A DNA stretch of 64,000 nucleotides from Candidatus Rokuibacteriota bacterium (GTDB taxonomy: Bacteria > Methylomirabilota > Methylomirabilia > Rokubacteriales > CSP1-6). Made by a program: the position numbers and the translations under genes. Below are positions 115 to 44,530 of the stretch, piece by piece. The number at the start of each line of letters is the position of its first letter. Within the stretch, counting starts at the first letter, position 1. The DNA is taken from positions 1 through 64,000 of the forward strand of contig JAUSJX010000124.1 of assembly GCA_030647435.1 (NCBI GenBank), given 5' to 3'. The notes beneath the pieces were generated by a model. The model saw only the letters and a list, made by a program, of their open reading frames with translations. It did no database searches and had not been told where the DNA came from.

Positions 115-1353
115 ATGTCTCACCCTGGTGTCGTGCACCCCGGCGCGCCCCACCGCTCGGGAGAGCTGGAGTGCCGCAACTGCCACGAGGCGACCCATCA
201 GGGCGTGGCCCTCATGTACGTCGGCATGGGCGGGCGCGGCACGCCCATGATCCCGAGCCACATGTTCCAGGTTCGCGTCGAGTGTGTCGCCTGCCACACC
301 TTGCCAAAGCGGGAAGGGGCTGTCGCCAAGATCGCGGGGCAGACCTTCAGGCCCACAGAGCAGGCCTGCGTCAACTGCCACAGCGAAAAGTACCGCGGCA
401 TGCTCCAGCGATGGATCGACACCCTGGTCAAGATGCGCGAGGTCGTCGTGCCGAAGCTTGAGGCCGCCCGCACGGCGCTCATCAACGCCGACCCGAAGAA
501 CCCGAAGCACGCTCGCGCCAAGGCACTGGCCGGCGACGCCGAATTCAACATGGAGTTCGTCACCTTCGGGAAGGGTATCCACAATGTCTTCTACGCCGCC
601 GACCTGCTCAAGCTGTCCAACAGCTGGCTCGAAGAAGCGCTCGGCCTGCTCGGCCGGCCGCCCGTGAAGGGGGATGACACGCTGGTCCGGGGCGGATACT
701 GCGCTGTCCTCTGCCACGAGCAGGCCGGGGTGAAGCAGCTCGAGACGGTGTCGTTCCGGAAGCAGAAGATTCCCCATGTCCGTCACGTCACCGAGTTCGG
801 CGCGACGTGCACCGCCTGCCACTCGGCCGAGGCCCACAAGGCGGTCACGGCCACGCCGGCCACCTGCAGCTCGTGCCACCACAGCCCCCAGAACGAGCGC
901 TGCGAATCCTGCCACCGCCCCCAGAGCGCCTTCTACCGGGGGCAGGAGAAGACCGACCTAATCAAGCTCGAGCCGAACGCGATGGTGAACGCCGTCGCCT
1001 GCACCGGCTGCCACGACTGGTCAAGGAAACACTCGCGCCAGGCGGTGGGCGAGAAGTGCGTCGGCTGCCACGACCGTGCCTACACGAGCTTCATGTCGGA
1101 GTGGACGATCGGGCTCGACAAGGAGGCGACGGCGGCGCGGGACGCGCTCAAGCGCGCCGACGCCGCGCTCGCGCGCCACCGCCGCGCCGGACGCCCGGAC
1201 TCCGACGCCGACGCCCTCGTCAGGGAGGCACGCGAGGCCCTGGCCTTGGTCCAGAAGGCGCGCGGTGTCCACAACCCCCCGGCTGCCGAGGCCCTTCTGC
1301 AGCTCGCGCGCAAGAAGGCCGAGGAAGCCCTGGCCCGCTCCGCCCAGCGGTAG
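115..1353 (+). CDS. nine-heme c-type cytochrome lacking a signal peptide
   Basis: The 412-residue protein has eight CXXCH motifs and one CX3CH (CAVLCH, about residue 200), so up to nine hemes. Two helical stretches carry a G-[VI]-HN-x3-A-x2-LL pattern that resembles the helical parts of NrfA/HAO-type cytochromes. The C-terminal 90 residues are charged and predicted helical. Heme attachment needs export, yet the frame opens just before the first heme motif, has no signal peptide and meets an in-frame TAA at 82-84. The gene therefore looks 5'-truncated, or its start lies elsewhere. It precedes the conduit operon at 1683. A role in periplasmic electron transfer is inferred. Confidence 0.75.
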   Translation: MSHPGVVHPGAPHRSGELECRNCHEATHQGVALMYVGMGGRGTPMIPSHMFQVRVECVACHTLPKREGAVAKIAGQTFRPTEQACVNCHSEKYRGMLQRWIDTLVKMREVVVPKLEAARTALINADPKNPKHARAKALAGDAEFNMEFVTFGKGIHNVFYAADLLKLSNSWLEEALGLLGRPPVKGDDTLVRGGYCAVLCHEQAGVKQLETVSFRKQKIPHVRHVTEFGATCTACHSAEAHKAVTATPATCSSCHHSPQNERCESCHRPQSAFYRGQEKTDLIKLEPNAMVNAVACTGCHDWSRKHSRQAVGEKCVGCHDRAYTSFMSEWTIGLDKEATAARDALKRADAALARHRRAGRPDSDADALVREAREALALVQKARGVHNPPAAEALLQLARKKAEEALARSAQR

Positions 1354-1533: not shown

Positions 1534-1548
1534 TGGCACCCCGCTTGC
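1534..1548 (+). promoter_or_regulatory. sigma-54 (-24/-12) promoter for the conduit operon
   Basis: TGGCACCCCGCTTGC matches the sigma-54 consensus TGGCAC-N5-TTGC at every fixed position and keeps the GG-N10-GC spacing. It lies 135 nt upstream of the ATG at 1683. The GGGGAA-type palindrome found near other sigma-54-like promoters in this window was not found upstream, so the activator may differ. The rest of 1354-1682 shows no gene; a GGTGTGGC direct repeat (about 1415-1440) is the only other structure seen. Confidence 0.6.
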
Positions 1549-1682: not shown

Positions 1683-2390
1683 ATGGCACTCACTCCGCGC
1701 CGCGTCGGCTGCGAAGGAACAGGTTATTCCCGGACCGGCGTGAGGCGACGCCTCACGCTGCTCCTGATCGGCGCGTGCACGGCCGCCCTCGCCGCCGCCG
1801 GCGCGGCCGCCGCGGATCCGGGAGATCCGGAGAAAGGCCGCGCGGTCTTCGCGGACAAGCAGTGTGCCCGCTGCCATCTGCCCCGGGGGGCCTCGCGACC
1901 CGGGCCGGCGCTCGAGGAGCTTCGGAGGCCCCAGGGGGGGATGGAACTGGCCGGCAGGCTCTGGAACCACGTGCCCGGCATGCTCGCGGCCCTCGCCGAG
2001 GGCGGCTCCACGTGGCCGCAGATCGATGTCGGCGAGATGGCCGATCTCATGTCGTATCTGCAGGCCGATGCGGCTCGTGACCCAGCGCCGGACTTTTTCA
2101 AGGGACACCTCCTGTTGCTCCGGAAGGGATGCCTCAAGTGCCACAGCCTGGCGCGGGAAGGGGGGCGGGTCGAGCCCGATCTCGCCGAGCCGCGCGCCGA
2201 CTATGAATCGGCCTCAGCGTGGGCGGCGGCGATGTGGGCGCATACGCCGGGCATGGTGGCGATGGCCTTGAAGAAGGGGATCCCGTACCCGCGCTTTTCG
2301 GGCGACGAGATGGGAAACCTCGTCGGCTTCCTCAAACACGCGGCTGCGACAACACCCCAGCGTCGGAGACAGGCTGCGCCGAGCCAGTGA
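1683..2390 (+). CDS. diheme cytochrome c with two WNHxPxM domains
   Basis: I chose the ATG at 1683 because it follows a GGAG ribosome binding site and gives a clean signal peptide (two Arg, hydrophobic stretch, then AAAA). The longer frame from 1506 adds non-signal sequence. The 235-residue product has two similar domains, each with one CXXCH (CARCH, CLKCH) and a later W-[NA]-H-x-P-G-M segment, then an acidic-Met-x2-L motif. The Met is a candidate axial heme ligand. The same repeat occurs four times in each of the proteins at 42453 and 45412. It is probably a periplasmic electron carrier in the conduit operon. Confidence 0.8.
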   Translation: MALTPRRVGCEGTGYSRTGVRRRLTLLLIGACTAALAAAGAAAADPGDPEKGRAVFADKQCARCHLPRGASRPGPALEELRRPQGGMELAGRLWNHVPGMLAALAEGGSTWPQIDVGEMADLMSYLQADAARDPAPDFFKGHLLLLRKGCLKCHSLAREGGRVEPDLAEPRADYESASAWAAAMWAHTPGMVAMALKKGIPYPRFSGDEMGNLVGFLKHAAATTPQRRRQAAPSQ

Positions 2391-2423
2391 TGCCCAGGCG
2401 CCGGGGGACCACGGAGGTCGCAC

Positions 2424-3158
2424 ATGAGGATTCCTGAGCAGGTCAAACGGCTCGCGGTCGTGGTCGCGGTCATCATCGCCGGCGTCCTGGTGACGCGGTT
2501 CTACGCGATCCCTCGCTCGCTCGTCTCGACCGACCTGCACCGCTCTTCCACCGTCCAACGGGAGCTCGCCAAGCCCGTGAAGTTTGCCGGATCGGAGATC
2601 TGCCAGGGGTGCCACGAAGCCGAGGGCATCAAGAAGAACAGGAGCTTTCACAGGAATCTCTCGTGCGAGGGGTGTCACGGGCCCGCGACGCAGCACACCG
2701 AGGATCCCATGGCCGTGAAGCCGCCCGCGCCGCGCGATCGCAAGTTCTGCCCGGTCTGCCATGCCTATGACGCCTCGAGGCCGACGGGCTTTCCGCAGAT
2801 CAATCCGACGGTCCACAATCCCCTCAAGCCGTGTATCGCGTGCCATAACCCCCACGATCCGACACCGCCCCAGACACCCCGGGCCTGCTCAGCCTGCCAC
2901 GCGCAGATCGAGCGGACGAAGGCGGTGTCCAGCCACGCGCTCCTGGTCTGCACGACGTGCCACACGGTATCCGAGCAGCACAAGAAAGCGCCCAGGACCG
3001 CGCTGCCGTCCAAGCCGCAGACCCGGGAGTTCTGCGCCAAGTGCCACGGGAAGGACTCTCCGCAGAAGGATCCGCCGAAGATCGACGTCACGACTCACGG
3101 CACGCCCTATCTGTGCTGGCAATGCCACTATCCGCACCTGCCGGAGGGACGGGGATGA
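2424..3158 (+). CDS. membrane-anchored octaheme c-type cytochrome
   Basis: The 244-residue protein has one N-terminal membrane segment (about residues 8-26) and eight CXXCH motifs: CQGCH, CEGCH, CPVCH, CIACH, CSACH, CTTCH, CAKCH and CWQCH. The lack of a clear cleavage site suggests an anchored periplasmic domain. Its stop overlaps the start of the ferredoxin gene (ATGA). It most likely takes electrons from the NrfD/ferredoxin module and passes them to the periplasmic decaheme. The NapC/NrfH fold was considered, but the heme count and spacing are closer to c3-like multiheme proteins. Confidence 0.85.
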   Translation: MRIPEQVKRLAVVVAVIIAGVLVTRFYAIPRSLVSTDLHRSSTVQRELAKPVKFAGSEICQGCHEAEGIKKNRSFHRNLSCEGCHGPATQHTEDPMAVKPPAPRDRKFCPVCHAYDASRPTGFPQINPTVHNPLKPCIACHNPHDPTPPQTPRACSACHAQIERTKAVSSHALLVCTTCHTVSEQHKKAPRTALPSKPQTREFCAKCHGKDSPQKDPPKIDVTTHGTPYLCWQCHYPHLPEGRG

Positions 3159-3949
3159 ACAAGCGCGACTTCTTGAAGGGCCTCATTCTGTTCTTCCCTG
3201 CGGGCGGTGTGCTGGGCGCCCTGGCCGGGGAGCTGGACGCCAAAGAGACGGCCCCCGCGCAGACGGGAACCGCGGGCGCCGCTCCCAAGCCAGGGCCCAA
3301 GGCGTACGACCCGAAGGCCCACTACTACGGCATGGGCATCGAGATCGACAAGTGCATCGGCTGCAACCGGTGCGTCGAGGCGTGCAAGGCGGAAAACGAC
3401 GTGCCGCGGGAGCCGTTCTTCTTCCGCACGTGGATCGAGCGCTACGTGATCAAGAAGGACGGCGACGTGGTCGTGGAAAGCATCAGCGTCAAGAGCAAGG
3501 CCTCGAAGGAGACGGCGCAGGAGGACTCTGACGTGCTGCGGACGTTCTTCGTGCCCAAGCTCTGCAACCACTGCGTGCATCCCCCGTGCGTCCAGGTGTG
3601 CCCGGTCGGCGCGACATTCGCGACGGAGGACGGAGTGGTGCTCATCGACTCCAAGCGGTGCATCGGGTGCCGGTACTGCATCCAGGCGTGTCCGTACGGG
3701 GCCAGGTATCTCGACCCGCGGACCAAGACGGCAGACAAGTGCAGCTTCTGCTACCACCGGGTGCGCCAGGGGCTGCTGCCGGCCTGCGTCGAGGTCTGCC
3801 CGACCCAGGCGCGCATCTTCGGCGACCTCAAGAGCAAGGCGAGCCGCCTCGTGCGCTTCGCGCGGATGAACAAGATCCACGTCCTCAAGCCGTCGCTCAA
3901 CACCGAGCCCAAGGTGTACTACGCCCAGCTCGACGGAGAAGTGCGATGA
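3155..3949 (+). CDS. four-cluster [4Fe-4S] ferredoxin subunit of a quinone oxidoreductase
   Basis: The 264-residue protein carries four cysteine groups for [4Fe-4S] clusters: CIGCNRCVEAC, CNHCVHPPCVQVC, CIGCRYCIQAC and a split CSFC...CVEVC. This is the NrfC/PsrB/DmsB layout. The N-terminus (NKRDFLKG plus a hydrophobic stretch) resembles a Tat signal with Lys in place of the first Arg, so export is likely but not certain. Four-base overlaps with both neighbours point to translational coupling. It should wire the NrfD protein at 3946 to the cytochromes. No molybdopterin subunit is encoded beside it. Confidence 0.9.
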   Translation: MNKRDFLKGLILFFPAGGVLGALAGELDAKETAPAQTGTAGAAPKPGPKAYDPKAHYYGMGIEIDKCIGCNRCVEACKAENDVPREPFFFRTWIERYVIKKDGDVVVESISVKSKASKETAQEDSDVLRTFFVPKLCNHCVHPPCVQVCPVGATFATEDGVVLIDSKRCIGCRYCIQACPYGARYLDPRTKTADKCSFCYHRVRQGLLPACVEVCPTQARIFGDLKSKASRLVRFARMNKIHVLKPSLNTEPKVYYAQLDGEVR

Positions 3950-5154
3950 GCGCGGAGATGACGGAGGGCCTGTCCGAGCTGCTGGAGCAGATCACCGGAT
4001 TCATCTATCCCAACGAGATCGAGATCCACTGGTCGATTCTGATCGTGGTGTATCCCTACATCACGGGCCTCGTCGCGGGGGCCTTCATCCTGGCGTCTCT
4101 CGTGAAGGTCTTCAACGTCAAGGATGTTCAGCCGACATACCGGCTGGCCCTGCTCACGGCGCTCGCCTTTCTGCTGGTGGCGCCCCTGCCCCTCCTCCTG
4201 CACCTCGGCCGCCCCGAGCTATTCTACGAGATTCTGCTCACCCCGAACGTGACCTCCGCGATGGCCATGTTCGGGTTCGTGTATGCGTGGTACCTCATGG
4301 GCGTCCTGCTGCTCGAGGTCTGGTTCGAGTACCGGCGGGATCTCATCGTCATGGCGGGGCGGGAGCGGGGGCTGATGCGGTGGATCCACCGCGCGCTCTC
4401 GCTGTTCTCGACCGACACCAGCGAGGCGGCGCTGGCGTTCGACCGTAAGGCCATCCGGGCCATCACCATCGTCGGGATCCCGTCGGCCTTCCTGCTCCAC
4501 GGCTACGTGGGCTTCATCTTCGGATCGGTGAAGGCGAACCCCTGGTGGAGCAGCGTGCTGATGCCGATCGTGTTCCTCATGTCGGCCATCGTCTCCGGGA
4601 TCGCGCTCGTCATCTTCCTTTACATGATGCTGGCCGCGATCCGGAAGGAGCCCGTCGACATGCGCTGCCTCGACACGGTCACCTCGTATCTGTTCTACGC
4701 CGTGATCGTGGACTTCTCCCTCGAGGCGCTCGACTTCATCCACCGCCTCTACGAGAGCGAGGAGTCGGTGAAGATCCTGGGCAAGCTCATCACGCACAAG
4801 CTGTTCATGAGCCTGTTCGTGCTGCAGATCCTGATCGGCATGTTCATCCCGCTGGGCATCCTGGTCGTCGCGAAGTGGCGGAAGCTCAACGAGGACGGCC
4901 GGAAGCTGCTGTACTTCACGGCGGTCATCCTGATCCAGCTGGGCATTTTCAGCACGCGCTGGAACGTCGTGATCGGCGGGCAGCTCTTCTCGAAGAGCTT
5001 CAGGGGGCTGATGGCATACAAGATGGAGGTCATGGGCATCGAGGGCTTTCTCGCCGCGATAGTGCTCCTCGCGCTGCCGTTCGTGATTCTGGCGGTGCTG
5101 ATCCGCGTGCTGCCGACGAAGCGGCTTGTGGACGAGGCGCCCGGGCCCGCGTGA
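3946..5154 (+). CDS. NrfD/PsrC-type integral membrane quinone subunit
   Basis: The 402-residue protein has eight or more hydrophobic segments and an LHLGRPELFY motif typical of NrfD/HmeB/DsrP-type proteins. These subunits exchange electrons between the quinone pool and a partner ferredoxin. It overlaps the ferredoxin gene by ATGA, so the two should form one inner-membrane module. With the octaheme upstream and the MtrA/MtrB-type pair downstream, it could feed quinol electrons outward or run in reverse. The direction cannot be read from sequence. Confidence 0.9.
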   Translation: MSAEMTEGLSELLEQITGFIYPNEIEIHWSILIVVYPYITGLVAGAFILASLVKVFNVKDVQPTYRLALLTALAFLLVAPLPLLLHLGRPELFYEILLTPNVTSAMAMFGFVYAWYLMGVLLLEVWFEYRRDLIVMAGRERGLMRWIHRALSLFSTDTSEAALAFDRKAIRAITIVGIPSAFLLHGYVGFIFGSVKANPWWSSVLMPIVFLMSAIVSGIALVIFLYMMLAAIRKEPVDMRCLDTVTSYLFYAVIVDFSLEALDFIHRLYESEESVKILGKLITHKLFMSLFVLQILIGMFIPLGILVVAKWRKLNEDGRKLLYFTAVILIQLGIFSTRWNVVIGGQLFSKSFRGLMAYKMEVMGIEGFLAAIVLLALPFVILAVLIRVLPTKRLVDEAPGPA

Positions 5155-5647
5155 GGCCGGCGCGGGCTACGCCTCATGGGGCGGCGCCACCCTGATGGGG
5201 CGGGGCCCGCCCAATCAGGTACATAGGCACACCTAAGGTTTTGGCATCCCCGTTGCCCCCTGCTGGCGGAAGGGCGCAGCGCGCCGTCCGAGAGGGGGCC
5301 GCCGTGGAGCGGATGAGGATGTCCAGCGGTTTGCTCGAGTGCCTCGAGGCGATCGGGCGCCTCGGGCACGAGCGGCCGTCAAGGGCCCTCGAGTCGCTGG
5401 CCGTCGGACTCGTCCTGATCCGGCTGATCATCGCCACGGCGATCAGGTAAGCCCAGAGGAGCCCGTGGAAACGCCCCAGGCGGCCGCGCTGGCCGGGGGG
5501 CGCCAGGCTGGGCATTGGCAAAATGATGCAAAAAGCCTATTGGATTATCCCGCGCCCGTGACGCATAGTGTCCGCTGACGAAGGACACCTCCGCCGCTGG
5601 CCGGCAGACGTCGGCCTCATGTACCAGCAGGAGAGAGGAGTCACGCG
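5155..5647. other. 493-bp intergenic stretch before the decaheme gene
   Basis: I see no convincing gene here. It holds the palindrome GGGCGGGGCCCGCCC (about 5198-5214) and, near 5511-5560, an AT-richer patch unlike its surroundings. A 69-codon frame at 5241-5450 has no clear ribosome binding site and no recognisable motif. The gap suggests the decaheme and porin genes can be transcribed separately from the quinone module. Confidence 0.5.
5515..5543 (+). promoter_or_regulatory. possible promoter before the decaheme-porin pair
   Basis: TTGGCA and TATTGG are 17 nt apart in an AT-rich patch, a fair sigma-70-like pair about 105 nt before the decaheme start. The same stretch also contains a weak GG-N10-GC pattern (5506-5519) that could be read as sigma-54, but no GGGGAA palindrome lies upstream. 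Either reading is tentative. Confidence 0.3.
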
Positions 5648-6625
5648 ATGACCGGTAGGCGTTGGCGGCTGTTCGCGGGGATCGCCTCGGCGGCGGCGGT
5701 GGTCTGCGCCGGGATCGTCCTCGGCCTTCCTTTCTCCTCCCGTGCCCAGCAGCCGGCACAGCCGGCCGCCGCCGCGGCCGCACCCGCGGACGGCAACTAT
5801 GTCGGCGCGGAGGTTTGCAAGGCCTGTCACGACGAGGCGTTCAGCAAGTTCTCCAAGACCAAGATGGGGCGCCTTTTCCTCCTCCAGGCGCGGAGTCCCA
5901 AGGAGGCCAACGCCTGCGAGACCTGCCACGGCCCCGGCAAGGCGCACGTGGACGCGGGCGGCGGCAAGGGCAAGGGTGGGCTGATCACCTTCGCGAAGAA
6001 CGACAAGACCCCCGTGGAGAAGCGCAACCAGGTGTGCCTGGGCTGCCACACCAAGGGCGCTCGGCTCTTCTGGCAGGGAAGCGCCCACGAGTCGCGCGAC
6101 GTCGCGTGCACCAACTGCCACAAGATCATGGAACAGGTCTCGTCCAAGGCGCAGCTCGCGAAGGCGACCGAGATCGAGACCTGCGGCACGTGCCACCTGC
6201 AGAAGCGGGCGCAGACAATGCGGTCCTCGCACATGCCGGTCCGCGAGGGCAAGATGACCTGCACCTCGTGCCACAACCCGCACGGGACGGTCACTCAAAC
6301 CCTCCTCAAGGAGCAGGGGGTCAACGAGACCTGCTATACCTGCCACGCGGAGAAGCGCGGACCGTTCCTCTGGAACCACGCGCCGGTCCAGGAGAGCTGC
6401 GTGAACTGCCACGACCCGCACGGCTCGAACTGGGAGAGGATGCTGAAGGCCGCCAAGCCGCGGCTCTGCCAGCAGTGCCATTCCCCGGGAAGCGGCCACC
6501 CGAGCAACATGTACGGTCGCGGTGACACGGCATCGCTCAAGTTCGTGATGGGCCATCAATGCACGAACTGCCATGCCCTTATCCACGGCTCCAACCATCC
6601 GTCCGGCCGCGTCTTCGAGCGCTAG
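5648..6625 (+). CDS. DmsE/MtrA-type periplasmic decaheme cytochrome c
   Basis: The 325-residue protein has a signal peptide (two Arg, hydrophobic core, Ala-Gln cleavage region near 33) and exactly ten CXXCH motifs. Heme number, length and the NYVGAEVCKACH start fit the DmsE/MtrA decaheme family. MtrA-type proteins insert into an MtrB-type outer-membrane barrel and carry electrons across it. The porin gene follows 10 nt downstream, the usual pairing. A GGAGAGAGGAG ribosome binding site supports the start. No outer-surface OmcA/MtrC-type decaheme or DMSO-reductase gene is seen nearby, so the external partner is unknown. Confidence 0.93.
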   Translation: MTGRRWRLFAGIASAAAVVCAGIVLGLPFSSRAQQPAQPAAAAAAPADGNYVGAEVCKACHDEAFSKFSKTKMGRLFLLQARSPKEANACETCHGPGKAHVDAGGGKGKGGLITFAKNDKTPVEKRNQVCLGCHTKGARLFWQGSAHESRDVACTNCHKIMEQVSSKAQLAKATEIETCGTCHLQKRAQTMRSSHMPVREGKMTCTSCHNPHGTVTQTLLKEQGVNETCYTCHAEKRGPFLWNHAPVQESCVNCHDPHGSNWERMLKAAKPRLCQQCHSPGSGHPSNMYGRGDTASLKFVMGHQCTNCHALIHGSNHPSGRVFER

Positions 6626-6635
6626 GAGGCCAGGG

Positions 6636-8888
6636 ATGATACTGACCCGGACAACGCCGTGTTTCCTCTCAGCCCTCCTGGTTCTGGGCGCGGCGGGAAG
6701 CGCGCCGGCCCAGACTCAATTCGCCGGGATGAACGTCGAAGGCAGCGTCGAGGCGGGAGGCCAGGTCTTCTTGACCGATGGCCCCAAGAACAAGGAGAGG
6801 GGCAAATTCGAGGAGTACCGCGACATCGAGGCGGGGCCCTTCCTCCGGCAGCTCGAGTTGAGGCTCTTCACCCCCGACGGGAGCTACTCAGGCGAGTTCC
6901 TCGGATCCAAGTGGGGGCGGGAGGACCAGGAGTTCTCGCTGGGCGCCGGGCGCACCGGCCTCTGGCGGTTCCAGTTCGACTGGGACCAGACCCCGCACAC
7001 CTTCTCGACGACTTCCCGCACGCTCTTGCACGAGATTTCGCGCGGGGTATGGGCGGCCCCGACAATCACGAGCCTGAGCGACTTCAACGGCCAGGCCACC
7101 TCGCGGGAGCTCCACGACGTCTCCGTCCGCTGGGACACCGCCCGCCTCCATTTCACGCTGACGCCGACACCGGACCTGGAGCTCAACGCCAAGTACACGA
7201 GAATCCGGAAGGAAGGCGACCGGCCGTTCGGCATGTCGTTCGGCTCGCCGGGCAGCAACTTCCTGGAGTTGCTCCAGCCCATCGAGGAGACCGTCCATGA
7301 CTTCCGCCTGGGCGGGACGCTCGCGCGCGAGACGTGGCAGCTCCAGTTCGGCTACACCCTGTCGGTCTACCAGAACGACCTAAGCCGGATGAGGTTCGAC
7401 AACCCCTGCTTCCAGGCCCCCGTGGGCGGGAGCGTCGCCTTCGGCTGCTCGGCCAGCGAGTCGCGCACCGCGGTGAACAGTGTGGTGCCCCAGAGCGGCC
7501 AGAGTTCCCTCCCGCCGAGCAACATGGCGCACACCTTCAATATCGCCGGTGGCGTGAGCCTGCCGCTTCGGACCCGTATCACCGGCAGCTTGATCTACAG
7601 CCTCGCGCTCCAGAACGCGGACTTCCTCCCGCACACGATCAACCCCACGATCGCCGGGGATGTGGACCTCAGGTTGCCGCAGCAGAGCCTGAACGGTAAC
7701 GTGCAGACCTTCAACCTCAACCTCCAGGCGACCTCTCGCCCGCTCCCGCTTCCGCTGACGCTCTCGGCCAAGTACCGCCTGTACGACCTCGTTGACGATA
7801 GCGATCAGATCTCCTTCCCGGCTGAGGTCGTCTCCGACCGCGCGACCGTCGTCGGCGGCGTCCTCAGCCCCTCTCGCGGTGTCGAAGTCGCCAAACGGCA
7901 GAGCTTCGCGCGCCACAACGCGGACGTCGACGCGCGGTACCAGATCGCCCAACCCGTGGCCATGACGATCGGCGCCGGCTGGGAGCGCTGGAACCGGGGC
8001 CCGCACCGCGAGGTCCGGGAGAGCGACGAATACTTCGCCAAGGCGGCGATCGACGCCACGCCGTTCGACTGGCTCATGGCCCGGCTCACCTACAAGCCGT
8101 CGTTCCGGCGGGACTCCGACTACAGCCGCTGGAAGGTGGCCCCCGTGAACGGGTTCCTGTTCCGCAAGGTCGACGAGGCCGAGCGTGATCGTCACCGCGT
8201 GGATCTCCTGCTCCAGTTCACGCTGCTCGACACCCTCTCGGTGACGCCCGTGGCCAGCTATCGCTACGACGACTACCTCCGTTCCGCGTTCGGCCTGCTG
8301 TGGGAAACGAGCTGGTCGGCGGGGATCGACTTCGGCTGGAGTCCGTCCGAGCGCCTCTCGTTCTCGGCCGGCTACGTGCACGAGGTGGACGACCGGAATC
8401 TGAAGAACCGTGGCGCCGGGGGTTTTGACAATCCCTCAAGCATCAACTCTGACTGGATCACGAACATGAAGGACACCGTCGACACCTTCCATGTCGAGGG
8501 CAAGGCGGCGCTGATCCCGAACGTGCTCGACTGGACCTTCGGCGCGAACTACTCGACGTCGTCCGGAACCCGAGAAACGCGCCTGACGAGCGCCACCCTT
8601 CCGGGCGCGGTCCTCGCCGTTCCCGGCTTGCTGCCGAAACGGATGCCGGCGGCCGACGATCTGCTCGTCATGTTCACCACCGCGCTCCGCTACCACTTCT
8701 CGAAATCGTGGACGGCCTCGCTCTTCTACACCTTCGAGCAGTTCAGGAAGAACGACTGGCGCACCGACGACCTGACGCCATTCATTCCGCAACTGGCCGG
8801 CACCACGGGCTCGATCTGGCTCGGCAACGACGCCAGGAACTACGACGCCCATATCCTGGGCCTGACGCTCGCCTACAGCTTCAAGTAG
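6636..8888 (+). CDS. MtrB/PioB-family outer-membrane porin
   Basis: The 750-residue protein has a signal peptide ending in APAQ. Long alternating beta-strand sequence follows, and it ends in aromatic/hydrophobic residues (LAYSFK), as expected for an outer-membrane barrel. Late motifs such as SAGYVHEVDDRN and DTVDTFHVEGKA are typical of MtrB/PioB porins and recur in the broken copy at 47161. The N-terminal CXXC of Shewanella MtrB is absent, as in PioB-like members. I chose the ATG at 6636, behind GGAGGCCAGGG. It should sheath the decaheme at 5648 and complete an electron path across the outer membrane. Confidence 0.92.
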   Translation: MILTRTTPCFLSALLVLGAAGSAPAQTQFAGMNVEGSVEAGGQVFLTDGPKNKERGKFEEYRDIEAGPFLRQLELRLFTPDGSYSGEFLGSKWGREDQEFSLGAGRTGLWRFQFDWDQTPHTFSTTSRTLLHEISRGVWAAPTITSLSDFNGQATSRELHDVSVRWDTARLHFTLTPTPDLELNAKYTRIRKEGDRPFGMSFGSPGSNFLELLQPIEETVHDFRLGGTLARETWQLQFGYTLSVYQNDLSRMRFDNPCFQAPVGGSVAFGCSASESRTAVNSVVPQSGQSSLPPSNMAHTFNIAGGVSLPLRTRITGSLIYSLALQNADFLPHTINPTIAGDVDLRLPQQSLNGNVQTFNLNLQATSRPLPLPLTLSAKYRLYDLVDDSDQISFPAEVVSDRATVVGGVLSPSRGVEVAKRQSFARHNADVDARYQIAQPVAMTIGAGWERWNRGPHREVRESDEYFAKAAIDATPFDWLMARLTYKPSFRRDSDYSRWKVAPVNGFLFRKVDEAERDRHRVDLLLQFTLLDTLSVTPVASYRYDDYLRSAFGLLWETSWSAGIDFGWSPSERLSFSAGYVHEVDDRNLKNRGAGGFDNPSSINSDWITNMKDTVDTFHVEGKAALIPNVLDWTFGANYSTSSGTRETRLTSATLPGAVLAVPGLLPKRMPAADDLLVMFTTALRYHFSKSWTASLFYTFEQFRKNDWRTDDLTPFIPQLAGTTGSIWLGNDARNYDAHILGLTLAYSFK

Positions 8889-11361: not shown

Positions 11362-11377
11362 CGCAAGCGACATGCCA
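11362..11377 (-). promoter_or_regulatory. sigma-54-like promoter of hemA
   Basis: On the minus strand the sequence reads TGGCATGTCGCTTGCG, which matches TGGCAC-N5-TTGC at all but one fixed position with GG-N10-GC spacing. A start point about 12 nt beyond the -12 GC would fall near 11351, three bases before the hemA ATG. The palindrome at 11474-11487 lies about 100 bp upstream, a usual enhancer distance. Confidence 0.6.
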
Positions 11378-13843: not shown

Positions 13844-15592
13844 TCAGTAGCTGCGAGGGTTGTGCTCCTCGCCGTGACACTTGAGGTAGCAGCTGCCCCG
13901 GCCGGGACGGGCGAGATCCGGGACGAACTCCAACCGCCCGCTGCTGCTCGCCGTGACCACGGTGCTCCCGGTCTTCGTGCGGAGCATGAAGTTGATCAGG
14001 CGGATGTTCTGGCGGGAGCCGTGGATGTCGTGGCACACGGCGCAGGACGCATTCTTCTCGACAACGTGCTTCTTGTGAGGGAAGCGCCCCGAGCCGTCGA
14101 TCAGCGTCGACCGGTTGTGGCACTTGTAGCAGAGCGCGTAGCTCGCGGGTGACTCGGCGGCGGGATCTCCCGCCTGGAACTCGCGCTCGAGAATGGGCTC
14201 GTACCGCGAGCCGTGGGGCCCGCGAGGACGCGTCCCTTGCGGCGTCCACTCGTCGTTGTTGTGGCAGTCGGTGCAGTAGATGAAGCTCGACGGCGTGTAG
14301 CCCGGCTCGAGGCCGACGATGGTCGTGTTCTTCCCTTGTGCTGCGACCGGATGGTACGAGGGGTTTGCCGGGTTGATTTTCAACCTGACGTTGCGGACGG
14401 CGTCGCGGCGCAGGATGCCCGGCGTCGTCGATTCATTGACCCCGTGGCACTTGAGGCAAACCTCGTACTCGAAGCTCACCTCATCAACGCGGGCGCCCTG
14501 GATGGACACCCCGCGGGAGCCCCGGGTTCGGCCCGTGGCCGTGGGAGCCGTCGCCGGCGCGGGAGTCACGGCGTGGGGGTTGTGGCAGTCCACGCACGCG
14601 ACGTGCCGCGGCATCACGGCCGGCTCCTCCTTGGGGTCGTGGGTCCACTCGCTACTGTCAATGGGGTGGCGGAACGGCTTGAGGAACTCCGCCTCGATGC
14701 TCTTGGGCGCCACCGCGCCATTGTGGCAGATGGTGCAGACGACGGGCTCCGCGCTCTGGGCCAGCAGGCGCTGGGGGTGGCCGGCGGCATGGGGGCGGTG
14801 GCAGTTGATGCACGCGTTCTCCCCCACCGTGGGGAACGCCCCAGGGGGCCAGGGGTTCGAACCCGTGCCGTTCCAGGTGGCGGTTGCGACCGAATGGGTC
14901 GAGCCCGTCCAGTTGCGCGGCCGGTGACAGGAGGTGCAGAGGGCGCCGAACCGATTGTCCAGCCGGAGGAACTTGGGGTTGCGGTCCTCGTGTGGGTCGT
15001 GGCACGAGGTGCACTGGAGCTGGCGCGTGTCGTCCAGGCGAATGGTGCGCGGCAGCGTCAGCGGGTCGGCGAGCTGGCCGCGACGGAGTGCCAGCGCGCT
15101 GTCGTAGACGAACGAGATCGGATGGTCGTCCGAGAGATCGGTTCCCAGGACGGCCCTCCCCGTGAGCGGTCCCAGAGTAAAGCGGCTGCCCCGTGGCGGG
15201 ACCCGGAGGTTCCCCAGCGCCAAGGTCCCGTCATGACAGGACAGGCAGAGGCGCGAGGAGCCCGTGGGCTGGCTGAGCTGCGCCTCGAGCGTGCTGCTCT
15301 CGTAGAGCTTGTAGGTGACGCCGGAGACCTCCCGGTTCCACAGGGCCCGTGTCGGGCTGGCGTTGTGTGGGGTGTGGCAGAACACGCAGAGCCCCGCCGC
15401 CTCGCTCACGCGGAACGTCCCCGGACCCGAGGAAGTCAGGTTGTGAACCGTCCGGGCGATCTGAGTCTGAGCCGCCGCCGCCGTCGCGGAGAGCAGCGCC
15501 CAGGCCAGCATGAGCGCGAGCCCCGCGGCGCGACATGCGATGCGCGCGAACGTTCCACGCTCCCGGTGATCCCCGTCGCTCCTGGCTCCCAC
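13844..15592 (-). CDS. twelve-heme c-type cytochrome
   Basis: The 582-residue protein has a signal peptide (residues about 17-40, ending AAAAQ), eleven CXXCH motifs and a C-terminal CX3CH (CYLKCH). Several motifs continue as CHTPH, CHDPH, CHNPH or CHRPH, the pattern of doubled-CXXCH multiheme cytochromes. The N-terminal part (VCFCHTPHNAS-like start and CLSCHDGTLALG) resembles the tetraheme at 24802, which also follows an NHL lipoprotein gene. It closes the 21049-13844 operon and probably acts in the periplasm or at the outer membrane as an electron relay. Confidence 0.88.
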   Translation of the reverse strand: MGARSDGDHRERGTFARIACRAAGLALMLAWALLSATAAAAQTQIARTVHNLTSSGPGTFRVSEAAGLCVFCHTPHNASPTRALWNREVSGVTYKLYESSTLEAQLSQPTGSSRLCLSCHDGTLALGNLRVPPRGSRFTLGPLTGRAVLGTDLSDDHPISFVYDSALALRRGQLADPLTLPRTIRLDDTRQLQCTSCHDPHEDRNPKFLRLDNRFGALCTSCHRPRNWTGSTHSVATATWNGTGSNPWPPGAFPTVGENACINCHRPHAAGHPQRLLAQSAEPVVCTICHNGAVAPKSIEAEFLKPFRHPIDSSEWTHDPKEEPAVMPRHVACVDCHNPHAVTPAPATAPTATGRTRGSRGVSIQGARVDEVSFEYEVCLKCHGVNESTTPGILRRDAVRNVRLKINPANPSYHPVAAQGKNTTIVGLEPGYTPSSFIYCTDCHNNDEWTPQGTRPRGPHGSRYEPILEREFQAGDPAAESPASYALCYKCHNRSTLIDGSGRFPHKKHVVEKNASCAVCHDIHGSRQNIRLINFMLRTKTGSTVVTASSSGRLEFVPDLARPGRGSCYLKCHGEEHNPRSY

Positions 15593-15614
15593 GCTGATCC
15601 CCCTGTCTGCTTCC

Positions 15615-16643
15615 CTACTCCGGGCCTCGGAGGAAGTCGAAGACCTGCACCCGCTGGTTGAAGGAGTCGGCCACGTAGACCTTGTCCTGCCCGCTGATGA
15701 AGATCCCTCCGGGGAGCCAGAACTGTCCCGGGCGCACCCCCCGTTCCCCGAAGCCGAGCAGGAAGGCCCCGTCCCGGTCGAAGATCTGCACCGCGTCGAA
15801 GAGCGCGTCTACGACGTACAGATGACCTCGGCTGTCGGTCGCTACGCCCTTTGGGCCGGCGAAGTCCCCCGAGCCGTCGCCGGGACGCCCCATCTTCCAG
15901 AGGAACCGTCCCTCGCGATCAAACGCCTGGACGCGGAAGTTGAGGGCGTCGGTTACGAGAAGAGTCCCCGACCTATCCAGCGCCACGTGGGTTGGATAGT
16001 TGAACTCCCCATCCCCGATCCCCCTCTTCCCCCAGCTGAGGATCTGTGCGCCGTCCGGGCCGTAGGCGGCGACCCGGTGCCCAGCCGAGTCGGCGACATA
16101 GAGCCGGCCGCTGCCCTCGTCATAGGCGACTGCCGCTGGTCGCTCGAGGCCGACCTCGGCGGCCGTCCGGAGCAGCTTGCCTTCGCGGTCCACCAGGAAG
16201 ACCTTCTTCAGCCAGGAGTCCGCGACGAAGACCGTGTCGGCGGGCCCGACGGCAACGGCCACCGGAGAAGCGAGCGTTATCCCCCCCAGCCGGCCCACTT
16301 TCGTGAACCTCTGATTCGCGAGGTCGAAGATCCAGAGGGCCTGAGCGCCCGGATCGGCGACATAGAGCAGATCCTCGCGCCCCGCGACGCCGGTTGGCCG
16401 GATCAGGAACTCGTCGCTCTTGCCGAAGAGAGCGTCGGTGAGCCGTCCGAAAAACGATCTCTGAATGCCCGCGTCCTGGGGGCCCGACACGCTTCGCACG
16501 TATCGGATCCGCGCCTCCGCGGGTGGCTTGGGCCAGACCAGGGGTTCCGCGAGCGGAACCGGTGGGGCGGGCGGGCGCACCCCACAGGCTCCCGCGAGGA
16601 GGAGCAGGGTGAGCGCGCTGACGACGCGGAGGCGCACGCGCAT
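15615..16643 (-). CDS. NHL beta-propeller lipoprotein
   Basis: The 342-residue protein has a lipoprotein signal (LLLLAGAC, lipid-bearing Cys near 20) and then about six NHL repeats with G-x-L-Y-V-[AV]-D motifs. These form a beta-propeller that usually mediates protein contacts. I chose the ATG at 16643 because it lies one base after the upstream stop and gives the lipobox. It is a paralogue of the protein at 25536, and both are followed by a CxxCHTPH multiheme gene. A scaffold role at the membrane for the neighbouring cytochrome is inferred. Confidence 0.85.
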   Translation of the reverse strand: MRVRLRVVSALTLLLLAGACGVRPPAPPVPLAEPLVWPKPPAEARIRYVRSVSGPQDAGIQRSFFGRLTDALFGKSDEFLIRPTGVAGREDLLYVADPGAQALWIFDLANQRFTKVGRLGGITLASPVAVAVGPADTVFVADSWLKKVFLVDREGKLLRTAAEVGLERPAAVAYDEGSGRLYVADSAGHRVAAYGPDGAQILSWGKRGIGDGEFNYPTHVALDRSGTLLVTDALNFRVQAFDREGRFLWKMGRPGDGSGDFAGPKGVATDSRGHLYVVDALFDAVQIFDRDGAFLLGFGERGVRPGQFWLPGGIFISGQDKVYVADSFNQRVQVFDFLRGPE

Positions 16644-16644
16644 C

Positions 16645-18660
16645 TCAGAACCGCCGAGTGACCTTGAGTTCGAAACGCATATCGGTGGACTGGGTCGTTC
16701 CGCGTTCTCGATCGACCCACGTGAAGGTCGGCGCCACATCCATCTTGCCGCGGGTCCAGCGGATCCTGATGCCCGTCTCACGGATGGTCTCCGAGGGGAG
16801 CCCGCTGTCCTCGGAGGTCCGCAGCGAGGCGAACGCGTTCACGAAGAGGCCGGCCAGCGGAGACCACGTCAGGTCCCCCCGCGTCGAGAGGCTCGTGCTC
16901 CGCCGCACCGGGATCGTGTAGTTGGCGAACGTCTCTTGCGCTGTGAGGCTCAGCACGAGATCTGACAGCGGCTGGACGGTCAGGAGCTGACCGTACTGCC
17001 ACGACGTGAACGCAAGCCGCGTGCTCTCCTGAACCTGGTATTGCGCGCTGGCGGACGCCCGAACCCTCTCCCAGTCCCCCCGCAGCTCGAGCCGCGCCGT
17101 ATCCACCGTCCGGTCGTCCAGAAACCGGTCGTCCCGCCCCGACAGCAGCGACTGCTCGGACTGCTCGTGGGCGAGAGACATGGCGATCCACCTGAAGTCC
17201 GCGCCGAGCTGGGCGCGCCAGGACACCGTCGAGAACCTGAGGCTCGGAGCCACCTCGTAAGAATAGCTGACCGCCAGGGGATCACCGGGAAGGATGACCG
17301 GACTTGCCGCGAGAGGAACGATCTTCGTCAAGTCCCCTTCTTGGACGATCAGGTAGTCCACGCCGAGCGTCGTCGGGAGCCGCGCCCCACCCCGCGTGTC
17401 CACCATCACGATCGTCGAGACGATGACGAATGGGTTGCCAAGGAGGAAGCCGGCGTTCCCGCCGAGCGGATTTGGCGCCGTGTGGGACTCGTCGACCACG
17501 TCGATGCGTGACGTGTCGATCTGGTTGTCGTCGATCTGGTAGCGGGCGCCGGCCCCCGCGAAGATGCGTCCGTTCCAGGGAATCGCCCGCTGGTAGTCGA
17601 GGTCGAGCTGGCCGGCATAGCTCTTCCGTTCGCCATCGGGGAGGTCCTGGAGTGTGGCTAGAGCGGTCGCGGCCGTGGTGAGGTTCTGGTAGAGCCGGTG
17701 CTGGACCTTGGCGGTCCCATTCTGGGTCGTCGTGGCCCCGGCATCGGTCTCGATCCGCGAGACGAGGTAACGGTAATCCGTGAACAGGTTCTCGTAATGG
17801 TCGATCCGAAGCTGCTCGTCAACCGAGAGATACGTGCTCCGCGCGAGCCCGCTCCTGGCGAAGTAGTTGAGGCGCGAGCTCCACCGGCGGTTCAGATTCT
17901 CGCCAAAGTCCAAGCTGTAGCCGAGCTCGGCTGTCTGGCTCCGGAAGTCGCCGGTGCTGCGCTCTTTGTCCTGCAGGTCGATGAACTCGTACCGGGCGTT
18001 GAAATCGGACGTCTCGAAGCCCTTGCTAGCCTCGTAACTGAAGATGTTCCGGGTCTCGTCGCGCCTGAAAGTCTGGTCCAGGATCTTGGTGTCTTCCTTC
18101 GTGTGCTCCTGCCGCGCGCCCACGGTTGACGAGAAATACCGCACCCCGAGATCCTGGAGGATGCTGTCCTCCCGGAGCCGGAATGTGCCGCCGCGGTTTT
18201 CGAAGCTGAGCTCGCTCCTGCCGCCGAACTCGCGACTGAGGACATTCTCGGTCCGGCTGGCGAAGGTCGAGAGGCTGTACGGCTTCTCGGACAGGATCAC
18301 GGTGTCGAAGGTGTAGCCGAGGAGCGTCCCGCTCGTCGAGGACTCCTTGTTGTCAAACCGGTCCTGCTCCTGGAAGAGGCCGAAGCTCCCGCTGAAGCTC
18401 GTGGATACGAGGCGCGGGTCCAGGTAATAGGCTCCGGTGTTGCGGACCGTCAGCCGCTCGTCGTAGCGGGTCCTCCCGGACTTGGTATTAGAGCCGCTGT
18501 CTCCTTTCGTCTCCTGGCGGTCCCAGGCATAGCCGGCCTCCAGGGCACCGTCCCAGGTCCCCAAGCCGATCCAGGGCTGGGCGCCGACTTCACCCGAGGC
18601 AAGCACGACCGCGCCCCCCAGGATCGCGCCGAACACCAGCCGCCGTGACCATCGGCTCAT
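16645..18660 (-). CDS. large outer-membrane beta-barrel, probable conduit porin
   Basis: The 671-residue protein has a signal peptide (ending VGAQ near 28), long stretches of alternating polar/hydrophobic beta-strands and a C-terminal Phe (VTRRF), all typical of outer-membrane barrels. I do not see MtrB/PioB motifs, so it is a different porin type, possibly analogous to the OmbB-like porins of Geobacter conduits. It lies between c7-type periplasmic cytochromes and the NHL/12-heme pair, which suggests it houses a cytochrome in the outer membrane. Function is inferred from context. Confidence 0.75.
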   Translation of the reverse strand: MSRWSRRLVFGAILGGAVVLASGEVGAQPWIGLGTWDGALEAGYAWDRQETKGDSGSNTKSGRTRYDERLTVRNTGAYYLDPRLVSTSFSGSFGLFQEQDRFDNKESSTSGTLLGYTFDTVILSEKPYSLSTFASRTENVLSREFGGRSELSFENRGGTFRLREDSILQDLGVRYFSSTVGARQEHTKEDTKILDQTFRRDETRNIFSYEASKGFETSDFNARYEFIDLQDKERSTGDFRSQTAELGYSLDFGENLNRRWSSRLNYFARSGLARSTYLSVDEQLRIDHYENLFTDYRYLVSRIETDAGATTTQNGTAKVQHRLYQNLTTAATALATLQDLPDGERKSYAGQLDLDYQRAIPWNGRIFAGAGARYQIDDNQIDTSRIDVVDESHTAPNPLGGNAGFLLGNPFVIVSTIVMVDTRGGARLPTTLGVDYLIVQEGDLTKIVPLAASPVILPGDPLAVSYSYEVAPSLRFSTVSWRAQLGADFRWIAMSLAHEQSEQSLLSGRDDRFLDDRTVDTARLELRGDWERVRASASAQYQVQESTRLAFTSWQYGQLLTVQPLSDLVLSLTAQETFANYTIPVRRSTSLSTRGDLTWSPLAGLFVNAFASLRTSEDSGLPSETIRETGIRIRWTRGKMDVAPTFTWVDRERGTTQSTDMRFELKVTRRF

Positions 18661-18669
18661 TCGCAGGCG

Positions 18670-18996
18670 TCATTCGCGGTGGCATCGTTGGCACGTCTCA
18701 AATCCCACGGGAAAGGCCGTCTTCCCGTCGTGACACGCGCCACAGAACTTGCCTTCGAGGATCGTGTCCATCGACACGGGGTTGGCGCCGGCCTTCATCT
18801 GGAAGATCGCGTCGTGGCAGACATAGCACTTGAACCGGATGCGGTGCGCCCAGTGGGGAAACTGAGCCGGCGGCGTGTCTTTGTCGGCAGCGCCCTTCCG
18901 CTGAAAGACGATGTCCCCCTCGACCGCCGCTCCCAGACCTACGAGGGCAGCGAGCAAGAGGCCTGCTCCGATCACAGAGACGGCGAGCCGCATCAT
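18670..18996 (-). CDS. triheme c7-type cytochrome
   Basis: The 108-residue protein has a signal peptide and three CXXCH motifs: CYVCH, CGACH and CQRCH. The FPHWAH...FQMK...FCGACHDG pattern matches the c(7)-type triheme domain found in cytochromes that can carry several such units. Its start overlaps the stop of the hexaheme gene (ATGATGA), and the barrel gene follows 9 nt after its stop. It should be a small periplasmic electron carrier. Confidence 0.88.
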   Translation of the reverse strand: MMRLAVSVIGAGLLLAALVGLGAAVEGDIVFQRKGAADKDTPPAQFPHWAHRIRFKCYVCHDAIFQMKAGANPVSMDTILEGKFCGACHDGKTAFPVGFETCQRCHRE

Positions 18997-20075
18997 CGGG
19001 CTCCCGCCAGCGCGGGGTGACAACGCGGACAGCCTGTGGGAACAGCAAAGGCCACCGTGCCGTGGCACACCCCGCAGTACTGGCCGGCGAAGATGGCCCC
19101 CATGTTGATGGGCGTGGCGCCCCGCTTCATCTGGAAGATTCCCGGGTGGCAATTGGCGCAGGCAAGCCACTCGGTGTGGACCGAGTGCGGGAACACGACC
19201 CGAAAAACTGGCTGGCCCTCCGGGATGCGCTCGACGTCGAGGGCCAGGGGAGGAAGGCCCGGGGCCTTCGGGTCCAGCGCGGATCGTGGAGCGACGAGTC
19301 CATCGGCGATCGCCTTGACCCAGTCCACGCCTCCGGTCGTCGCATTCGGAAGCGCCTTCGCGACCTCTTCCCAGGTCTTCAGCTTCTCGACGGCGGGCGC
19401 CGCGGCTGGGGCTACTGGGGCAGGAGCCGCGGCCGTCCTGGGGCCGGCCAGCGCCAGATGGCAGCGTGGGCAGCCGGTTGGGACCGCGAAGGAAACCTTC
19501 CCATGGCAGCGGCCGCAATACTCCCCGGCGTAGATCTTCGCCATGGTGATCGGGGCAGCCCCCCGCTGCATCTGGAAGATGCCCGGATGACAGTTCGTGC
19601 AGGCGAGCCACCGGGTGTGGGCCTCATGGGGGAACGTCACCTTGAAGAGGGGCTGCCCTTCGGGCGTCAACTCCACGTCGAGGGGAAACACCGGCTGGTC
19701 CTGTGCCTCGGGTTCGAGCCCCGCCCGCGGCTCGATCGCCTTTTCCTCCAACGCGCGGACCCAGTCCACGCCTCCCGCCGCGTCCTTCGGGAGCTGCTGG
19801 AGGAGATCCCGCCACGTACGCAACGCGGCCGGGCGCACCGGCTCGGGTGGTGGAAGCGAGGCCTCGACAACGGCCGGCTGGGATCCGGGCTTGGGGGGCG
19901 GCACCCGGCGAGGGCTCCGGACCACCGGCTTGACGCGGAGTTCCTCTCCAGGCTTCGGCACCCCTTCGAAGAGCGTCGAGAGGACACGGTGCCGGGCCTC
20001 TGGGCTGCAGCCGTGGGCAGCCACCGCTCCCAACAGACCTACCATGGAGAGGAGCAGCGCGACCCGTCCCCGCAT
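18993..20075 (-). CDS. hexaheme cytochrome with two c7-type triheme domains
   Basis: The 360-residue protein begins at the ATG at 20075. A hydrophobic N-terminus ends AHGC, a weak lipobox, so it may be a lipoprotein. A proline-rich linker follows. Two repeats of about 130 residues each have a W-[RE]-[DE] helix segment ending in GGVDWV and then three CXXCH motifs (CTNCH/CGRCH/CPRCH and CANCH/CGVCH/CPRCH). Both have the FPH..HT.WLAC and IFQM.RGA motifs of the triheme domain. The repeats are close to each other, pointing to recent duplication. It probably works with the barrel at 16645. Confidence 0.88.
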   Translation of the reverse strand: MRGRVALLLSMVGLLGAVAAHGCSPEARHRVLSTLFEGVPKPGEELRVKPVVRSPRRVPPPKPGSQPAVVEASLPPPEPVRPAALRTWRDLLQQLPKDAAGGVDWVRALEEKAIEPRAGLEPEAQDQPVFPLDVELTPEGQPLFKVTFPHEAHTRWLACTNCHPGIFQMQRGAAPITMAKIYAGEYCGRCHGKVSFAVPTGCPRCHLALAGPRTAAAPAPVAPAAAPAVEKLKTWEEVAKALPNATTGGVDWVKAIADGLVAPRSALDPKAPGLPPLALDVERIPEGQPVFRVVFPHSVHTEWLACANCHPGIFQMKRGATPINMGAIFAGQYCGVCHGTVAFAVPTGCPRCHPALAGAR

Positions 20076-20080
20076 GGCAC

Positions 20081-21049
20081 CTATCGGGCGCCCTGGAACG
20101 TCCTGCGGATGAAAAGGATCACCCGCCGAACGTCTTCGCCGTTCAGAATGCCTCCCCACGGGGCCATGGCCGTTCCCGGAATGCCGTGGATGATCCGCTG
20201 GGCCATCTCCCTGTCGCTGAGCCGCGCCATCTCCTGGGCGTTGGTAAAGTTGCGGGGACGCGGAACCAGGCTTTGGCCGATCGGAGTCTGCCCGTCCCCA
20301 CGCTCGCCGTGGCATGGGGTGCAGTCCTGCTGGTAGATTTGTCCGCCCACCAGGACATCGAGTCCGGCGCGCGTCATGCCGGCGGGCAGCGGTTGCTGGA
20401 GGCTCCGGATGTAGCGCATCAAGTCGATGATCTCCGCCGGGCTCTCCAGCTCTCCCCAGCCGCCCATGGCCGTCCCGGGGCGGCCCAGCTTGATCGCCGT
20501 ATACATTCGCCCGTCATCCACCCGCGCCATCTCGATCGGGTCGGCAAACTTGCGGGGGCGCGGACGGAGCACCTTTGCCGCCTCCGTGTCGGCGCGCCCG
20601 TCGGCCCCGTGGCACATCGCGCACTGCTTCTCGTAGATGCGGCGGCCGACCTGGAGGCTCAGCTGGTCTATGGAGAGCGCGGCAGGGAGCGGCGGGGTCA
20701 GGCTCCGAACGTAGTCGATGATGTCGCCCATCTGGGGTTCACTCAGCACCTGCCCCCACGGAGCCATGGCCGTCCCCGGCCGGCCCATCCTGAGGGCACG
20801 ATACATCCGGTCGTCGGTCACACGGGCCATCTCCACCGGGTCCGTGAAATTCCTCGGCCGCGGCTCCAAGAGCCGGGCGACCGGTGTGTCGGCGCGCCCG
20901 TCGACCCCGTGGCAGAACGCGCAGTACGTGTCGTAGAGCGTCTTGCCCCGCTCGTGCACCCCTTGGGAGGCAGGCTGGGCCGCGAGCGGGGCGGCCCACA
21001 CCAGGCTGACTCCGAGCACGAGAAGCTCCAGGATTCGGCGCATGCTCAT
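20081..21049 (-). CDS. three-domain class I cytochrome c
   Basis: The 322-residue protein starts at 21049 behind GGAGGTGG, has a signal peptide ending PLAAQ, and contains three repeated cytochrome c domains. Each has one heme motif (CAFCH, CAMCH, CTPCH) and a later GTAM[AG]xWG or equivalent segment whose Met is the expected axial ligand. It is the first cytochrome of the 21049-13844 operon; its stop lies 5 nt from the next start. It is likely a periplasmic electron carrier, similar in domain type to CccA/CcoP-like cytochromes. Confidence 0.87.
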   Translation of the reverse strand: MSMRRILELLVLGVSLVWAAPLAAQPASQGVHERGKTLYDTYCAFCHGVDGRADTPVARLLEPRPRNFTDPVEMARVTDDRMYRALRMGRPGTAMAPWGQVLSEPQMGDIIDYVRSLTPPLPAALSIDQLSLQVGRRIYEKQCAMCHGADGRADTEAAKVLRPRPRKFADPIEMARVDDGRMYTAIKLGRPGTAMGGWGELESPAEIIDLMRYIRSLQQPLPAGMTRAGLDVLVGGQIYQQDCTPCHGERGDGQTPIGQSLVPRPRNFTNAQEMARLSDREMAQRIIHGIPGTAMAPWGGILNGEDVRRVILFIRRTFQGAR

Positions 21050-21143
21050 CAGCCCCACCTCCCGTCTGGATGAAAGCGTGAAAATCAGTCTACGGCCGAG
21101 GGCCCGCAAGAAAGAGCGAATTGTCCGGGCCCGTGGGCGCTCC

Positions 21144-24675: not shown

Positions 24676-24746
24676 GTCGTTCTCCTTGCTCTCTCCCCTT
24701 CCAGACCAGCGTGATCACGCCGGGCTGGAAAACGCCGGGGAAGAAA

Positions 24747-24783
24747 AGAGGCCTGGCCTCTTCACCCCCCTGACCAGGCCTCT
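24747..24783 (-). terminator. rho-independent terminator after the tetraheme gene
   Basis: Read on the minus strand, AGAGGCCTGG and CCAGGCCTCT form a perfect 10-bp stem around a 17-nt loop, followed directly by TTTTC. It lies 19 nt after the stop of the tetraheme gene at 24802 and ends the leftward 27087-24802 operon before the zinc-ribbon gene. Confidence 0.85.
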
Positions 24784-24801
24784 CCGTGCTTCAGGTCCGG
24801 G

Positions 24802-26717: not shown

Positions 26718-26727
26718 GATGGCCTCG

Positions 26728-37744: not shown

Positions 37745-37752
37745 GGGAGAAC

Positions 37753-40167: not shown

Positions 40168-40171
40168 CGCC

Positions 40172-42203: not shown

Positions 42204-42204
42204 C

Positions 42205-43694: not shown

Positions 43695-43719
43695 GAACCC
43701 AACTCGAAGGAGGGACACG

Positions 43720-44508: not shown

Positions 44509-44530
44509 GCCTCGCGAAGATGGTCAACAG

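Follow-up and report, generated by a model that had tools for sequence, protein, structure and literature searches.

How electrons could pass from the quinone pool to the cell surface in a rokubacterium is the question raised by the first genes of contig JAUSJX010000124.1 (C124, 77.7 kb), part of a 5.79 Mb Candidatus Rokuibacteriota genome that is 98.5% complete. Rokubacteria are soil and groundwater bacteria, an abundant uncultured group whose respiration is poorly known. The stretch analysed, called the window below, is the first 64 kb of the contig, and near its start genes for an octaheme cytochrome, an iron-sulfur (Fe-S) protein and an NrfD subunit (together, the cassette) precede genes for a decaheme cytochrome and an outer-membrane porin. 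We consider it probable, with some reservation, that these genes encode two cooperating modules, a menaquinol:octaheme oxidoreductase and a conduit of MtrAB type to which it passes electrons. A route from the quinone pool to the outer membrane, as proposed in a preliminary description of the locus, is well supported by the domains of the proteins, by repeated linkage of the genes in relatives, by their co-occurrence in genomes and by similar promoter motifs. The genes concerned are:

115–1353 (+), 8-heme periplasmic cytochrome of the mhc115 family, mature part only (8 CxxCH; PF14522, 1.8e-10; aligned with full-length relatives)
1683–2390 (+), diheme class I cytochrome c, exported (2 CxxCH; PF00034, 1.7e-10; several relatives have a diheme gene upstream of the cassette)
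2424–3158 (+), membrane-anchored octaheme cytochrome c (8 CxxCH; N-terminal membrane helix)
3155–3949 (+), periplasmic 4x[4Fe-4S] protein, NrfC/PsrB/TtrB/DsrO-like (PF13247, 2.4e-29; 16 Cys; KR-type twin-arginine signal)
3946–5154 (+), NrfD integral membrane quinol-oxidising subunit (PF03916, 1.1e-39; alignment)
5648–6625 (+), decaheme cytochrome c of the MtrA/PioA/DmsE family (TIGR03508; 6r2q_A; 10 CxxCH and 10 other His)
6636–8888 (+), MtrB/PioB outer-membrane beta-barrel without a CXXC motif (PF11854, 8.2e-101; TIGR03509; 6r2q_B)

The six genes at 1683–8888 were already listed in the preliminary description, and all are confirmed there on the + strand, none of them due to chance. Within the cassette each gene runs a few bases into the next, 33 bp lie between the diheme gene and the octaheme start, and the decaheme and porin genes are spaced by 10 bp. 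A gap of 493 bp separates 1683–5154 from 5648–8888, and the genes therefore constitute two tightly packed transcription units and not the single block described earlier; the 8-heme gene at 115–1353, which is cut at the start of the contig, also belongs to the conduit locus.

The decaheme protein scores 268.9 bits to TIGR03508 (curated NCBIfam cut-off 192.2) and matches the MtrA chain of the MtrAB structure (6r2q_A) with an E value of 6.9e-74, and the porin scores 264.4 bits to TIGR03509 (curated cut-off 240.05) and matches the MtrB chain (6r2q_B) at 3.8e-9. A second MtrB/PioB gene seems to have left a remnant at 47229–47498 (+), which encodes a 90-residue fragment with 48% identity to residues 557–650 of the porin. 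The 16 cysteines of the Fe-S protein show a four-cluster spacing, and its nearest PDB match is PsrB (2vpw_B, 7e-46). In the octaheme cytochrome the 8 CxxCH motifs and 8 further histidines are invariant across 26 proteins from many phyla, so that all hemes are probably bis-histidine ligated with no free catalytic site, a pattern that would fit electron transfer and not catalysis; its AlphaFold2 model was poor (predicted local distance difference test 62, predicted template modelling score 0.39). The diheme protein is a likely periplasmic shuttle.

A σ54-type -24/-12 pattern, TGGCAYNNNNNTTGC, counted as exact matches only, has three sites in the window against 0.22 expected:

1534–1548 (+), σ54-type motif TGGCACCCCGCTTGC, about 135 bp 5' of the diheme start
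5242–5256 (+), σ54-type motif TGGCATCCCCGTTGC, in the gap between the NrfD and decaheme genes
11363–11377 (-), σ54-type motif at the start of hemA, a glutamyl-tRNA reductase-like gene

Over the whole genome the pattern has 48 sites against 6 for its reversed form, and upstream of other cassettes it is found in 7 of 67 cases where 0.6 would be expected, with none for the reversed pattern. NtrC-type regulators are encoded beside the locus in relatives (PF00158, 1.9e-74), and no σ70 promoter was found when one was looked for. Both transcription units may thus possibly share σ54-dependent control, and the third motif might place the supply of heme under the same regulation as the cytochromes; since the pattern was picked after a first look at the upstream sequence, the motifs are taken as support and not as proof.

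At least 536 relatives of the cassette were detected, and the best 80 loci were read for gene order, with names as in the deposited records. Most of these 80 keep the order octaheme, Fe-S, NrfD, normally without a molybdenum (Mo) subunit, and they come from Rokubacteria, Acidobacteria, Deltaproteobacteria, Bacteroidetes/Ignavibacteria (among them a Melioribacteraceae locus, L145), Aminicenantes, Calditrichota, Marinimicrobia and others. One 3-kb contig labelled Candidatus Eisenbacteria (L103) encodes an NrfD 93% identical to that of the window and is possibly mislabelled or misbinned. Comparison of gene order bears out the pairing within the Rokubacteria family, where the cassette is repeatedly linked to the decaheme or porin gene: they share a contig in genomes G025, G034, G042 and G051, in G018 and G046 some of the cassette genes diverge from the decaheme gene, and the same order across contig breaks makes linkage probable in G031 and G019. 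In a sample of about 57 genomes of this family this type of NrfD is present in 13, the porin in 15 and both in 12 (Fisher p 8e-9 to 3e-8, which is optimistic as the genomes are not phylogenetically independent).

From these genes we infer the electron route, its direction and acceptor, energy conservation, physical contact between the parts and any link to filaments. NrfD would draw electrons from menaquinol at the cytoplasmic membrane, and the four-cluster Fe-S protein would pass them to the membrane-anchored octaheme cytochrome, which would receive them on the periplasmic side. The diheme protein, and perhaps other periplasmic cytochromes, would carry them onward to the decaheme cytochrome, which threaded through the porin in the manner of MtrAB and PioAB would bring them to the cell surface, where minerals, humics or another extracellular compound would be the final acceptor, reached directly from the decaheme or by way of OmcE-type filaments. 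Electron flow is most likely outward, because a gene of a futalosine-type menaquinone family is present and no high-potential iron-sulfur protein (HiPIP/PioC, PF01355) was matched in the genome.

The preliminary description saw no outer-surface cytochrome nearby, which is contradicted by two homologues of OmcE-type nanowire cytochromes in a cluster at 13844–27087, 5–18 kb from the conduit genes:

13844–15592 (-), 11-heme cytochrome, N-terminal 200 residues OmcE-like (7tfs, an OmcE-type filament cytochrome, 3.3e-28)
15615–16781 (-), NHL beta-propeller protein (PF01436, 5.6e-26)
16645–18660 (-), probable outer-membrane barrel of 671 residues (signal peptide; C-terminal Phe; syntenic in G033)
18993–20315 (-), 6-heme cytochrome of the OmcE-type cluster (PF14522, 4.8e-25)
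20081–21109 (-), cytochrome with three class I heme domains (PF13442, 5.3e-32, three stretches)
24802–25539 (-), tetraheme OmcE-type nanowire cytochrome candidate (7tfs, 1e-12, nearly full length; 9yuq, 8.7e-10; signal peptide-like N-terminus)
25536–26717 (-), NHL beta-propeller lipoprotein (PF01436, 5.7e-33; lipobox-like N-terminus)

The cluster is regarded as a unit because the same gene order recurs in G033, where the tetraheme cytochrome has a homologue with 68% identity. This cytochrome resembles OmcE over nearly its whole length and is a candidate for filament formation; the 11-heme protein differs from OmcE as a fusion. The barrel has a homologue in one relative only and matched no Pfam family even at an E value of 1. 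Electrons are possibly passed on from the conduit to OmcE-type filaments. It is a doubtful, though conceivable, extension that one σ54-controlled super-locus joins the NrfD-octaheme complex, the MtrAB/PioAB-type conduit and the filaments, with Mtr-type and Geobacter-type machinery in one chain.

Several points weigh against a cassette that feeds the conduit. While OmcE-type homologues are present, no OmcA or MtrC was found: TIGR03507 searched over the whole genome gave only a match below the cut-off, to the MtrA-type protein. Among the best 80 of the at least 536 cassette loci, 2 have a porin gene linked to the cassette and 5 a decaheme gene, and outside the Rokubacteria family a cassette usually has no porin linked to it. 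NrfD and the porin are both absent from four genomes of the same genus, so the trait is patchy, and within the family the statistics suffer from shared ancestry as said above. The choice of σ54 motif was post hoc, and the upstream 8-heme gene appears split.

If electrons instead ran inward, as in PioAB and MtoAB, extracellular Fe(II) or Mn(II) would be oxidised and electrons would be led via the decaheme to an oxidase or, with NrfD reversed, to the quinone pool. The lack of MtrC/OmcA in the genome is shared with the Pio and Mto systems, Rokubacteria homologues of PioAB reported in 2023 are close to those of Rhodopseudomonas (about 43% identity to PioA and PioB) and their hosts were proposed to be iron oxidisers (PMC10654088), and contig C124 also carries genes for alternative complex III (ACIII) and for cytochromes. 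The ACIII/Qrc-like cluster is found at 37483–46593 (+) and comprises an ActB/QrcB-like protein, an Fe-S protein, an NrfD-type ActC and several cytochromes c. We nevertheless consider inward flow unlikely: the futalosine-type gene suggests a low-potential quinone (ubiquinone genes were not searched for), so that electrons from Fe(II) would have to go uphill through NrfD, the HiPIP/PioC protein is missing from the genome, and the neighbouring OmcE-type cluster suits outward transfer better. The cassette could also be a general quinol:periplasmic cytochrome reductase that supplies a number of terminal enzymes, Nap among them, and lies beside the conduit partly by accident. In relatives the neighbours of cassette or conduit include NapAB (G018 and G046, with the cassette convergent on it), formate dehydrogenase N (G025), ArrA-like (G044) and TtrA-like (G033) enzymes and ACIII, most of the cassettes, which are spread over many phyla, have no porin, and SirCD of Shewanella is a multifunctional precedent. 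However, the strong co-occurrence and repeated porin linkage within the family and the σ54-type motifs 5' of both units make this explanation quite improbable, and a general role is in any case compatible with also feeding the conduit.

The possibility that the decaheme and porin serve an extracellular Mo reductase encoded elsewhere, for dimethyl sulfoxide (DMSO), iodate, tetrathionate or similar, is very improbable, and such a Dms-like system was rejected as the main explanation because the family loci read show no linked Mo partner. The decaheme family carries the name DmsE, which cannot separate Dms from Mtr systems because TIGR03508 strongly matches MtrA too. Other Mo enzymes are present in the genome (e.g. 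C81:47117-49945), yet positions 1–37000 of the window hold none, and the one at 59498–62245 has no signal peptide at its start and adjoins a benzoyl-CoA reductase-like gene. A DMSO reductase-type partner encoded consistently in homologous loci would have spoken for a Dms-like role, but the relatives do not show one: in none of the family loci read is a Mo gene found directly 3' of the decaheme and porin genes, and among the relatives examined an enzyme with a molybdenum bis(pyranopterin guanine dinucleotide) (Mo-bisPGD) cofactor, TtrA-like and accompanied by an Fe-S protein, is directly 3' of the porin in G072 only, a genome of another family. Elsewhere NapA, FDH-N or ArrA/TtrA-like enzymes are no more than separate neighbours of the cassette. 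That locus (L098:5058-12961, -) has decaheme and porin genes followed by those of the Mo enzyme and Fe-S protein, and the enzyme is a possible extracellular Mo reductase. The region 58236–63767 (+) of the window encodes a benzoyl-CoA reductase subunit B-like protein, then the Mo-bisPGD enzyme, which has no signal peptide, and an anchor resembling DmsC.

The proposed menaquinol oxidation by the cassette, feeding the conduit, has partial precedents among known systems. With MtrAB, PioAB and MtoAB the locus shares an adjacent decaheme and MtrB/PioB porin, both above the curated cut-offs and resembling 6r2q, but it lacks MtrC/OmcA and the PioC HiPIP, its porin has no CXXC, and its entry module is of NrfD type and not CymA; MtrAB without MtrC is also known from Magnetospirillum AMB-1, which reduces iron (PMC7005843), and the inner-membrane partners of Mtr systems vary, CymA and NetBCD being examples (PMC8805035). 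Like DmsEFABGH it has a DmsE/DmsF-type pair, but no DmsA, DmsB, DmsG or DmsH adjoins it and the window 1–37000 has no DmsA with DmsB. Cbc4 (CbcSTU) of Geobacter, described as a menaquinol:ferricytochrome c oxidoreductase (PMC11434368), likewise consists of an NrfD-like subunit, an Fe-S protein and a multiheme cytochrome c without a catalytic subunit, and its description mentions no linkage to an MtrAB conduit. Shewanella SirCD, an Fe-S and NrfD quinol dehydrogenase that substitutes for CymA with DMSO, fumarate and ferric citrate, is described without a dedicated octaheme cytochrome (PMC11434368). In the available parts of the respective papers, Fe-S/NrfD modules without a Mo subunit are proposed to feed Fe(III) reduction in Melioribacter roseus (NrfCD-type; PMC3534657) and, with a multiheme cytochrome c, in MBNT15 (SHF-111; PMC9386147), and these parts report no adjoining MtrB/PioB conduit. 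The nine-heme cytochrome complex NhcABCD likewise combines an NrfD-like subunit, a four-cluster Fe-S protein and a multiheme cytochrome, and differs in its nine hemes, its fourth subunit and its partner TpIc3 in sulfate reducers (PMC8076601).

Geobacter, Shewanella, Desulfovibrio, Melioribacter and MBNT15 thus all have known or proposed NrfD complexes that lack a catalytic subunit, those of Geobacter (Cbc4), Melioribacter and MBNT15 being described as quinol:cytochrome oxidoreductases, and the suggestion of a distinct type of extracellular electron-transfer system goes too far, with Mtr entry partners already varied; a categorically new system was rejected given the descriptions of Cbc4, SirCD, Melioribacter and MBNT15. 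What is added here is the pairing of cassette and conduit, its conservation in the family, the σ54 signals and the neighbouring OmcE-type cluster, the parts all being of known kinds. Searches of open-licence papers gave no description of the pairing, family conservation, σ54 signals or adjacent cluster.

The truncated 8-heme gene appears to be split between C124 (115–1353) and contig C129 (L197:1-330), the end of which appears to encode the signal peptide. The ends of C129 and C124 share no overlap, and the end of contig C130 repeats the last 120 bp of C129; we infer the join from the split gene and synteny, helped by this repeat, and a repeat or insertion probably lies between C129 and C124. 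C129 encodes a cytochrome b (PF00033, 2e-51), a 13-heme cytochrome and a NapC/NirT-type 8-heme cytochrome, with the cytochrome b and NapC-type genes adjoining the other end of the split gene, and a Rieske/cytochrome b/multiheme module repeatedly adjoins conduit or cassette in relatives. Because of these genes and the probable join, the conduit locus may be supplied through several quinone entries, including a bc-like or NapC-like one. Near the cytochrome b module lies a gene for an ethylbenzene dehydrogenase-type heme subunit (EB_dh; L197:8697-9728, -), beside which no Mo catalytic subunit was identified.

If the proposed route is right, it gives Rokubacteria a concrete and testable electron chain, and the widespread, conserved octaheme-FeS-NrfD cassette would be the likely point at which electrons from quinones enter periplasmic and extracellular transfer chains across many phyla. 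Since NrfD-type subunits may conserve energy and CymA does not, the energy yield from extracellular acceptors could depart from the Shewanella model. Should the super-locus also be real, many uncultured phyla would have in the widespread cassette an entry to extracellular respiration that possibly conserves energy.

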